DNA of 64,000 nt, taken from Brevibacterium jeotgali (lineage in GTDB: Bacteria > Actinomycetota > Actinomycetes > Actinomycetales > Brevibacteriaceae). Positions 18,706-52,410 of the stretch are shown piece after piece; within the stretch, counting starts at the first letter, position 1; every line of letters starts with the position of its first letter. The stretch lies in NCBI RefSeq assembly GCF_900169175.1, contig NZ_FXZM01000008.1:62001-126000 (forward strand), read 5' to 3'. The notes beneath the pieces are model-generated. The model saw nothing but the letters and a program-made list of their open reading frames with translations, was not told the origin of the DNA and did no database searches. Both the position numbers and the translations under genes were made by a program.

Positions 18706-18777
18706 GCGAGGGACGGGTGGACGGTTCGACGGCCGGGCGCAGGAGGCCGCACGTCGAACCGTCCACCCGTCCCTCGC
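18706..18777. terminator. 25-bp perfect inverted repeat between convergent genes
   Basis: Arms at 18706-18730 and 18753-18777 are exact reverse complements over 25 bases. The 22-base loop itself can pair GGCC with GGCC. It sits between the stops of the rhodanese gene and the GH3 gene and could terminate both transcripts. It is much longer than usual terminators and has no T-run. Confidence 0.65.
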
Positions 18778-49912: not shown

Positions 49913-50010
49913 CCACTGCACGGTCATCTTCTGCACTGCGCGGTCATCCTCTGCACTGCGCTGTCACCGTCTGCACTGCGCTGTCACCGTCTGCACTGGG
50001 CGGTCATCCG
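49911..50010. repeat. 20-bp tandem repeat, five copies, at the permease start
   Basis: Five consecutive 20-base units (starting at 49911, 49931, 49951, 49971, 49991) of the type CTGCACTGCG-CGGTCATCCT; the third and fourth are identical, the others differ by a few bases. Read on the minus strand, each unit carries ATGACC or GTGACA, so the array multiplies possible start codons in changing frames. Confidence 0.9.
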
Positions 50011-50040: not shown

Positions 50041-50646
50041 TCAGGCCATTCTCCCTGAGGTCTGATCGGCCTGGAGGACAGCCGCCAGAAGTCGGTCCAG
50101 CACCTGGTGGGATCGCTCTCGTGCCAGGTCCGCGTCCGTATGCTGAGCAGTCCAGAGCGCAGCCTCATTCATCGCACCGGAGAGCTGTGCGGTCACCGCC
50201 TCGAGAAGCTCCTCGGCGACCCCGACGTCCCGCAGGACCTCCTTCAGGTGTGCCGCGGAGTTCTCTGCGTCGAGCCGCCGCCACTCCTGCCAGCCGATCA
50301 CCGCCGGCGCGTCGATGAGCAGGATCCGCACAGCGGAGCCGGCGGTGACCGCATCGAGGAACGCATGCGCGCCCGCCTTCAGCTGGTCGCTCGGCTCCGT
50401 CCCGGCACTCTCCGCTGCCTCCATGACCGCCTCGGCGACCTGCCGCTGCAGCTGGGCCGCGACCTCGCGGAACAGCCCTGCCTTGCTCCGGTAGTGGTGG
50501 TAGACGGCCCCTCTCGTCACACCGGCGACCTGGGCGACGTCGACCAGTGAAACATCAGCGAAGCCCCGAGACGCGAACAGCTCACCGGCCGAGGCCAGGA
50601 CCAGCCGGGCGGTGCGTGCGGCGTCGGCTGCTGTGGCGCGGGGCAT
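50041..50646 (-). CDS. TetR-family repressor (AcrR-like)
   Basis: A 201-aa regulator. The HTH is at about 10-58: A-S-A-G-E-L-F-A-S-R-G-F-A-D-V-S-L and V-A-G-V-T-R-G-A-V-Y-H-H-Y-R-S-K-A-G-L-F, very typical of TetR. The ligand domain is helical. ATG 50646 has AAAGGA 7 bases upstream; the GTG at 50652 is too close to it. Divergent from the VOC gene with twin operator sites between, so repression of both is likely. Confidence 0.9.
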   Translation of the reverse strand: MPRATAADAARTARLVLASAGELFASRGFADVSLVDVAQVAGVTRGAVYHHYRSKAGLFREVAAQLQRQVAEAVMEAAESAGTEPSDQLKAGAHAFLDAVTAGSAVRILLIDAPAVIGWQEWRRLDAENSAAHLKEVLRDVGVAEELLEAVTAQLSGAMNEAALWTAQHTDADLARERSHQVLDRLLAAVLQADQTSGRMA

Positions 50647-50658
50647 GAGCACTTCCTT

Positions 50659-50677
50659 TACGTACAGGCGGTATGTA
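50659..50677. promoter_or_regulatory. TetR operator 1
   Basis: TACGTAC-AGGCG-GTATGTA, imperfect palindrome (6 of 7 arm positions), adjacent to the tetR start. It is the mirror copy of operator 2. Confidence 0.65.
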
Positions 50678-50689
50678 TCCTGATCGAGC

Positions 50690-50708
50690 TACATACTCAG
50701 TGTACGTA
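50690..50708. promoter_or_regulatory. TetR operator 2
   Basis: TACATAC-TCAGT-GTACGTA; centre 31 bp from that of operator 1, i.e. about three helical turns. Half-sites are like the TACATAC of AcrR/QacR-type operators. Together the two sites form a larger palindrome with 12-bp outer arms at 50655-50666 and 50701-50712. Confidence 0.65.
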
Positions 50709-50720
50709 AAGGAGATGCCG

Positions 50721-51128
50721 ATGTCCCCCACCAGCTTCTACCCGGTCCTCACGACCACCGACGTCGCCGGCACCGCCGCCTTCTACCGGAGAGCGCTCGG
50801 CTTCGAGACGACGTTCGACTCCGAGTGGTACGTCAGCCTGCGCCTGGGCGCATTCGAGCTGGCAGTCCTCTCCCATGACCACGCCACGATCCCCGAGCCG
50901 CACCGGGCCCTCCCCCACGGCCTGATCCTGAACCTGGAAGTGGACGACGTCGACGAAGCCCACCGCAGGCTCACCGAAGAAACCGGTCTGGAACCGATCC
51001 TGGCGCTGCGCGACGAGGATTTCGGCCAACGGCACTTCATCGTCGCGGCACCCGACGGCGTCCTCCTCGATGTCATCCAGCCGATCGCACCCAGCGCCGA
51101 CTTCGCGGACCTCTATGCCGGCGGCTGA
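50721..51128 (+). CDS. VOC-family (glyoxalase/bleomycin-resistance-like) protein
   Basis: A 135-aa single-chain VOC protein: two beta-alpha-beta-beta-beta halves, with [22 protein letters not shown] at the start and [13 protein letters not shown] near the end (metal-ligand Glu/Asp type position). Function may be detoxification or antibiotic binding. ATG 50721 is chosen with AAAGGAG 7 bases upstream; the ATG at 50715 is too near. Under control of the divergent TetR. Confidence 0.85.
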
Positions 51129-51143
51129 GTCACGTCGCAGCAG

Positions 51144-51464
51144 TCAGGCCGCGCCGGTCTCCACCAGCAGCACGCCGCCCACGATGAGCACGATGCCGAG
51201 TCCGCTCAGCCAGGTGAAGGGCTCTGCGAAGAGGATCCGACCCAGCACTGCGGTGAGAGAGACGCCCACCGCTGACCAGATGCCGTACGCCACGCCGAGC
51301 GGCATGCCCTGGGCGAGCACGAGGGCGAGCATGGAGAAGGCACCCGCGTAGAAGACCCCGACGGCGATGTACCAGGACCGCGAGCCGTGGGCCCCCATCC
51401 GCAGGGCGAGGGTGCCGACGACCTCGAGCACGATCGCACCCGCCAGCAGCAGCCACGCCGTCAT
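51144..51464 (-). CDS. SMR-family efflux subunit 1
   Basis: A 106-aa four-helix small multidrug resistance protein. W-L-L-L-A-G-A-I-V-L-E-V-V-G-T-L-A-L-R contains the essential membrane Glu (about residue 14); [16 protein letters not shown] is the SMR signature. The ATG overlaps the stop of the second SMR gene (ATGA), indicating a heterodimeric pump. Convergent with the VOC gene. Confidence 0.9.
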   Translation of the reverse strand: MTAWLLLAGAIVLEVVGTLALRMGAHGSRSWYIAVGVFYAGAFSMLALVLAQGMPLGVAYGIWSAVGVSLTAVLGRILFAEPFTWLSGLGIVLIVGGVLLVETGAA

Positions 51465-51829
51465 GCGTCGACCGTCCCGCATCCGCGTCGCCGCACAGGC
51501 AGGGTGCTGCCCACCTCGACGCACAGCACGCCGGCCGCGATCAGCAGGATGCCGATCCCCATGACCGGGGTGAAGGGCTCCGCGAAGACGACTGCCGAGA
51601 GGATCGCGGTGAGTGCGACGCCGGCCGCAGCCCAGCTGCCGTACGCGACACCCAGAGGCATCCCCGTCCGCAGCGCCAGTGCGAGCAGGACGAATGCGCC
51701 CACGTATGCGGCACCGGTCAGGAGGAACAGCCAGGGGACCTCCAGCGCCGCCTTCAGGGACAGAGAGCCGGCGACCTCCAGGACCACGGCGAAGGCCAGC
51801 GCGGTCCATCCGCGAGCGCGGGCGCTCAT
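51461..51829 (-). CDS. SMR-family efflux subunit 2
   Basis: A 122-aa SMR protein with [12 protein letters not shown] (Glu about residue 18) and [16 protein letters not shown]. It has an additional C-terminal basic tail. It is paired with subunit 1 and preceded by a TetR gene with a 3-base overlap: regulator and pump share one transcript. Confidence 0.9.
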
Positions 51830-52410
51830 CAGCTGCCCGCAGGTCGGTCGGAAGGCGGTGCGGCAGAGGGGCCCGGTTCACCGCCGGGACTCTGCGGCTC
51901 GACGGTGAGGCTCAGTGCCACCTCCAGGACGTCGGCCAAGTCGTCGTGGGAGAAGGAGACGACCCCCAGCGCGCGGTCGAACCACGCCCCGTCTGCGGCG
52001 AGTCGTGCCGCGCGGTACCGCGCCCGGTCCGCTGGCGACGCGTCGATGACCTCACCGATCCACGGCGAGAGCGTGCTGTCCCACAGCGCGACGAGCTGCA
52101 CGGACAGCTTCGCATCGGCCAGCAGTGCGAGGTCGCTCGCGTCGATGTCCTCGGTCATCGTGTACCGGATGTACGCGCGCAGGCGCTCCACCGGCGACGG
52201 GGACTCTCCCGCGTACCTCCGCAGTCCGTCCAGCCAGCGCAGTGCGACGTGCTCCACGACCGCGACGGCGAGCACCTCCTTCGTCCGGAAGTGGTGGACG
52301 AGCCCGGGCTTCGTGAGTCCGGCACGCGATGCCACGGCGTCCAGCGTGAGCGGGTCGCCGCACCGCAGAACCTCGAGCGCACCGTCGAGAATCGCATCCC
52401 TCGTCGTCAT
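51829..52410 (-). CDS. TetR-family repressor of the SMR operon
   Basis: A 193-aa TetR protein. The HTH is right at the N-terminus (about 5-50): [10 protein letters not shown] and [22 protein letters not shown]. The C-terminus is Pro/Gly-rich. First gene of a tetR-smr-smr operon. It has a leaderless-type promoter overlapped by a palindrome, so autoregulation of the whole operon is likely. Confidence 0.88.

Follow-up and report, generated by a model that had tools for sequence, protein, structure and literature searches.

The locus considered here lies in a window of 64,000 nucleotides of Brevibacterium jeotgali (contig NZ_FXZM01000008.1, positions 62,001 to 126,000 of the forward strand) and comprises two divergent genes separated by an intergenic gap of 74 bp, with a G+C content of 49% in the gap vs. 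69% window-wide. The gene on the reverse strand (tetR, 50041–50646) encodes, as judged from its translation and Pfam, a 201-aa member of the TetR family combining the TetR_N helix-turn-helix domain (PF00440, 52.8 bits at a cut-off of 24) with the TetR-type C-terminal domain TetR_C_41 (PF21351, 67.6 bits at a cut-off of 27). Its start codon is the ATG at 50646; the mechanically delimited reading frame starts earlier, at the GTG at 50652. The gene on the forward strand (50721–51128, 135 aa, ATG at 50721, with an in-frame ATG at 50715 as an alternative possible start) encodes a protein of the VOC superfamily with the Glyoxalase/bleomycin-resistance fold (PF00903, 40.6 bits at a cut-off of 20.6), whose closest PDB entry, 3vcx, is matched over the full length (E 6e-41). 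The VOC fold is shared with 3vcx and with the BLMA-type proteins, but the matches to bleomycin-binding proteins are weak: an assignment to BLMA was rejected at 29.3 bits vs. a cut-off of 140.

Palindromic operators adjoining the regulator's own gene, as expected of the TetR family, are represented in the gap by two predicted sites, both strandless and recognized from the sequence and its comparison with relatives: operator 1 on the TetR side (TACGTAC-AGGCG-GTATGTA, TACGTACAGGCGGTATGTA; 50659–50677, centre 50668) and operator 2 on the VOC side (TACATAC-TCAGT-GTACGTA, TACATACTCAGTGTACGTA; 50690–50708, centre 50699). These coordinates bear out the preliminary description of two 19-bp sites with 31 bp between their centres; its statement that the sites are mirror images holds for the half-sites and fails for the N5 centres. 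Within each site, its own two arms agree at 6 of 7 positions (TACGTAC vs. TACATAC). The outer arms, earlier given as perfect over 12 bp, were found to be perfect over 13 bp (TCCTTTACGTACA / TGTACGTAAAGGA), but a part of this symmetry has another cause, since its outermost bases, AAAGGA, belong to the outward-facing Shine-Dalgarno sequences of the two genes. About the axis at 50683.5, 32 of 45 positions are symmetric, the second-best value among all axes in the window, and the 3.3-Mb genome contains no exact match to TACNTAC-N5-GTANGTA other than these two in the tetR–VOC gap. The most symmetric axis of the window (36/45) belongs to a long inverted repeat at 18708–18775 (GAGGGACGGGTGGACGGTTCGAC ... 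GTCGAACCGTCCACCCGTCCCTC), possibly a terminator.

Within the genus Brevibacterium, a TetR of this type (E up to 1e-25) is present in 8 of 57 genomes. The nested pair with a spacing of 31 bp, searched with up to two mismatches, was detected in six of these eight and in none of the 49 genomes lacking the regulator (Fisher p 8e-7, to be read with the reservation that the genomes are not independent). In the seventh TetR-bearing genome (G051, locus L095), the twin sites are 29 bp apart; in the eighth (G055, locus L096), no site with up to two mismatches was found. The TetR match at L096 begins only at residue 17, which may reflect decay or rearrangement of this copy. In a comparison with loci L011, L013, and L092–L098, the TetR of the window shares 76% identity with homologues from Nesterenkonia and Gordonia vs. 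62–70% with those of its own genus, which, along with its presence in only 8 of the 57 genus members, suggests horizontal spread.

The wider comparison was made with the best 80 of 408 TetR matches in genome contigs, i.e., with the closest relatives. A VOC homologue (45–76% identity) is encoded divergently in all 80, and two sites are recognizable in 75, making 76 loci with that of the window; a single recognizable site was seen in a few relatives (L033, L041, L081, L090). Scans with variable-gap patterns, covering 396 genomes of the order and 395 of the class, returned few loci because exact outer arms are rare; a further 32-bp case was recovered in one genome (G714). The sites of the relatives fall into two types, TACNTAC-N5-GTANGTA and CATACC-NNN-GGTATG, the latter being found in Streptomyces, Nocardia, and others. 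The repressors differ in parallel: residue 45 of the recognition helix is R in 50 of 50 loci of the TACNTAC type and K in 26 of 26 loci of the CATACC type. Sequence comparison in this way establishes that the sites exist and are conserved, that the two genes form a pair, and that site type matches repressor type.

Residue 45 aligns with Arg48 of EthR2 (Rv0078) of M. tuberculosis, the closest PDB relative of the TetR in the window. In the crystal structure, Arg48 is the sole base-contacting residue (PMC6016246). The alignment further pairs Thr47-Arg48 and Tyr52 of EthR2 with T44-R45 and Y49, so the base-contacting Arg and neighbouring phosphate contacts of the EthR2-type recognition helix appear to be retained; unlike EthR2, L34 stands here at the position of its T37, leaving no Thr. 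The pattern at residue 45 is consistent with a role as a determinant of operator specificity, although the R45/K45 difference is a single change on the TetR tree. Because the change is single, the pattern is inseparable from common descent, and the covariation was dropped as an independent proof. The N-terminal domain also matches AcrR in NCBIfam, below the cut-off. AcrR-type operators, which we take to have the form TACATAC ... GTATGTA with half-sites about N10 apart, would resemble the present sites in the half-site itself, and the recognition helices are similar; the half-sites are separated here by N5 vs. that presumed N10.

The sites adjoin the presumed signals of gene expression. Operator 1 abuts the Shine-Dalgarno region of tetR (AAAGGAAG, 50652–50659, reverse strand) and operator 2 that of the VOC gene (AAAGGAG, 50708–50714, forward strand), and both of these signals, predicted from the sequence, are kept beside the respective sites in the relatives. 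A scan of the gap for consensus sigma-70 promoters found none, and a −10 element on the VOC strand was not identifiable from the alignments of the relatives. On the TetR side, position −4 is A in 75% and position −3 is G in 68% of the 76 linkers, and position −1 is A or T in all of them (100%). Hence, the five linker bases preceding the TetR-side site and the first T of the site form xAgxAT in the relatives, which fits a −10 element at its best-conserved positions and hints at CAGGAT (50677–50682, reverse strand), whose last base is the first T of operator 1, as a candidate −10 element of tetR. If this assignment is correct, transcription of tetR would start near 50670, inside operator 1, and the operator would extend over the predicted promoter from about −7 to about +12.

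On comparative grounds, it is close to certain that both sites are operators of the adjacent TetR. The control of the regulator and of the divergent VOC gene through these sites, as proposed in the preliminary description, stands as the best inference from the sequences, given the gene pair in 80/80 and the twin sites in 75/80 relatives, the co-occurrence within the genus, and the pattern at residue 45. In a tested set from streptomycetes, TetR regulators with a gap below 200 bp repressed the divergent neighbour (PMC3511530).

The locus very probably represents a self-regulated switch of two genes, organized on the same plan as the tetR/tetA control region of Tn10, with one TetR_C_41 repressor dimer on each 19-bp site. 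The sequence that we take to be the Tn10 tetR/tetA control region (matched at 100% in plasmids) features 19-bp operators 30 bp apart from centre to centre. The resemblance includes the divergent pair of a TetR-family regulator and its target, a pair of palindromic operators belonging to one length class, and, by comparison of the sequences, their placing as separate sites at about 30 bp from each other, the distance being 31 bp here. The differences lie in the operator sequence, in the effector, and in the target (an efflux pump in Tn10 vs. a VOC protein here), and in the spacing, which in the present case varies between relatives.

As regards the operation of such a switch, we infer binding, repression, the ligand, and the function of the VOC protein as follows. 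The dimer on the TetR side would cover the −10, start, and ribosome-binding region of tetR, and its counterpart on the VOC side would do the same for the VOC gene; with the promoters very close to each other, each dimer would probably hinder the polymerase at the other promoter as well. A small compound binding to the C-terminal domain of TetR would release both dimers and raise the level of both the VOC protein and TetR, and the VOC protein might then bind or modify the inducing compound. The distance between the sites would be selected to stay near 31–32 bp, either by a weak cooperativity of dimers mediated by their contact or by DNA shape, or by shared promoter geometry.

The alternatives concern mostly the last point and the number of dimers involved. 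Among the 76 loci, the most frequent spacings are 31 bp (20 loci) and 32 bp (19), followed by 29 bp (7), 30 bp (6), 27, 33, and 35 bp (4 each), 28 and 34 bp (3 each), 23 and 24 bp (2 each), and 26 and 37 bp (1 each), so the mode of 31–32 bp accounts for 39 of the loci within a range of 23–37 bp. This distribution supports a preferred spacing of about three helical turns in the sequences compared.

According to the first alternative, the two operators would be independent: each dimer would block its own promoter only, and the spacing would result from the packing of the promoters in the absence of any interaction of the dimers. This is quite conceivable, if somewhat short of probable. It agrees with the R45 clade, where the sites are anchored to their own genes, the median distance from site centre to start codon being 22 bp, and changes of the spacing are frequent, and with the precedent of Tn10 tetO1/tetO2, which control both genes with no cooperativity indicated (PMC3037858). 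The K45 clade speaks against it: there, the sites have drifted to 23–100 bp from the VOC gene and 17–97 bp from tetR, yet the median spacing is still 31 bp, with an SD of 2.7 bp vs. 17 and 20 bp for the site-to-gene distances (Levene p 2e-4 and 0.01). Since the spacing is steady while the gene distances spread, the distance between the sites is conserved in its own right, and anchoring to the genes alone is insufficient, although promoter overlap could explain the pattern.

The second alternative, put forward in the preliminary description, implies that two touching dimers sit on the same DNA face three turns apart and bind cooperatively in dependence on the helical phase; we regard it as possible but doubtful. 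The modal spacing corresponds to 3.0 turns at 10.5 bp, is kept where the gene distances vary, and is accompanied by a clustering of the phase over 35 clusters defined at 75% identity (Rayleigh R 0.37, p about 0.009). Still, this clustering displays no excess over a unimodal (normal) null of the same mean and SD (p 0.20), 8 of the 35 clusters (23%) are more than a quarter turn away from 31.5 bp, spacings of 23–28 and 34–37 bp occur in functional-looking loci, and the Tn10 pair is reported to be non-cooperative (PMC3037858). The TetR tree requires at least 37 changes of the spacing. What endures of the proposed helical phasing is a spacing centred on 31–32 bp; a strict rule of helical phase was abandoned in view of the distribution. 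A related and rather unlikely variant holds that the distance of the operators would be selected apart from the promoters via a cooperative but phase-tolerant contact of the dimers, with residue 45 (R/K) setting the operator type.

A further alternative follows the example of EthR2, in which two dimers staggered by 7 bp bind to one 21-bp operator from opposite faces (PMC6016246); up to four dimers, two per site, would then be accommodated in the gap. The EthR2/Rv0077c pair is a close parallel in its arrangement, with a divergent target 61 bp away and an operator overlapping both start sites, EthR2 is the closest solved relative, and the outer half TACGTA is itself palindromic and could offer a second register. 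However, the overall similarity to EthR2 is modest, and the gap of the latter is described with one operator, as opposed to the two separate 19-bp palindromes kept in the TetR–VOC loci; multi-dimer binding is judged distinctly improbable. Least credible by far is the notion that the symmetry is a by-product of the facing Shine-Dalgarno sequences and promoters or of a DNA or RNA hairpin, devoid of a repressor role: the AAAGGA at both ends does add to the outer arm, but the TACNTAC motif is distinct from the Shine-Dalgarno sequence, a related motif is kept far from the start codons in the K45 clade, and the site pair co-occurs with this TetR.

The self-regulated switch with one dimer per site would in itself be an ordinary drug- or metabolite-responsive device. 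The module is widespread and conserved; no earlier description of it was found in the literature searched, which likewise contained no characterized TetR–VOC pair with this operator. Its value is twofold: for an uncharacterized repressor family in many genera of actinobacteria, an operator, a target gene, and a specificity residue can now be predicted, and the natural spacing variants, from 23 to 37 bp, represent material for studying the need of twin TetR operators for helical phasing.

Two observations concern the flanks of the module. Adjoining it at 51144–51829 are two adjacent genes of the small multidrug resistance (SMR) family, located beside a second TetR gene (51829–52410) and likely constituting a paired SMR operon. 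On the other side, 4.8 copies of a 20-bp unit in tandem array (49914–50008, 89% matches) overlap the beginning of an SBF/ACR3-like transporter gene, in its start region, downstream of tetR.
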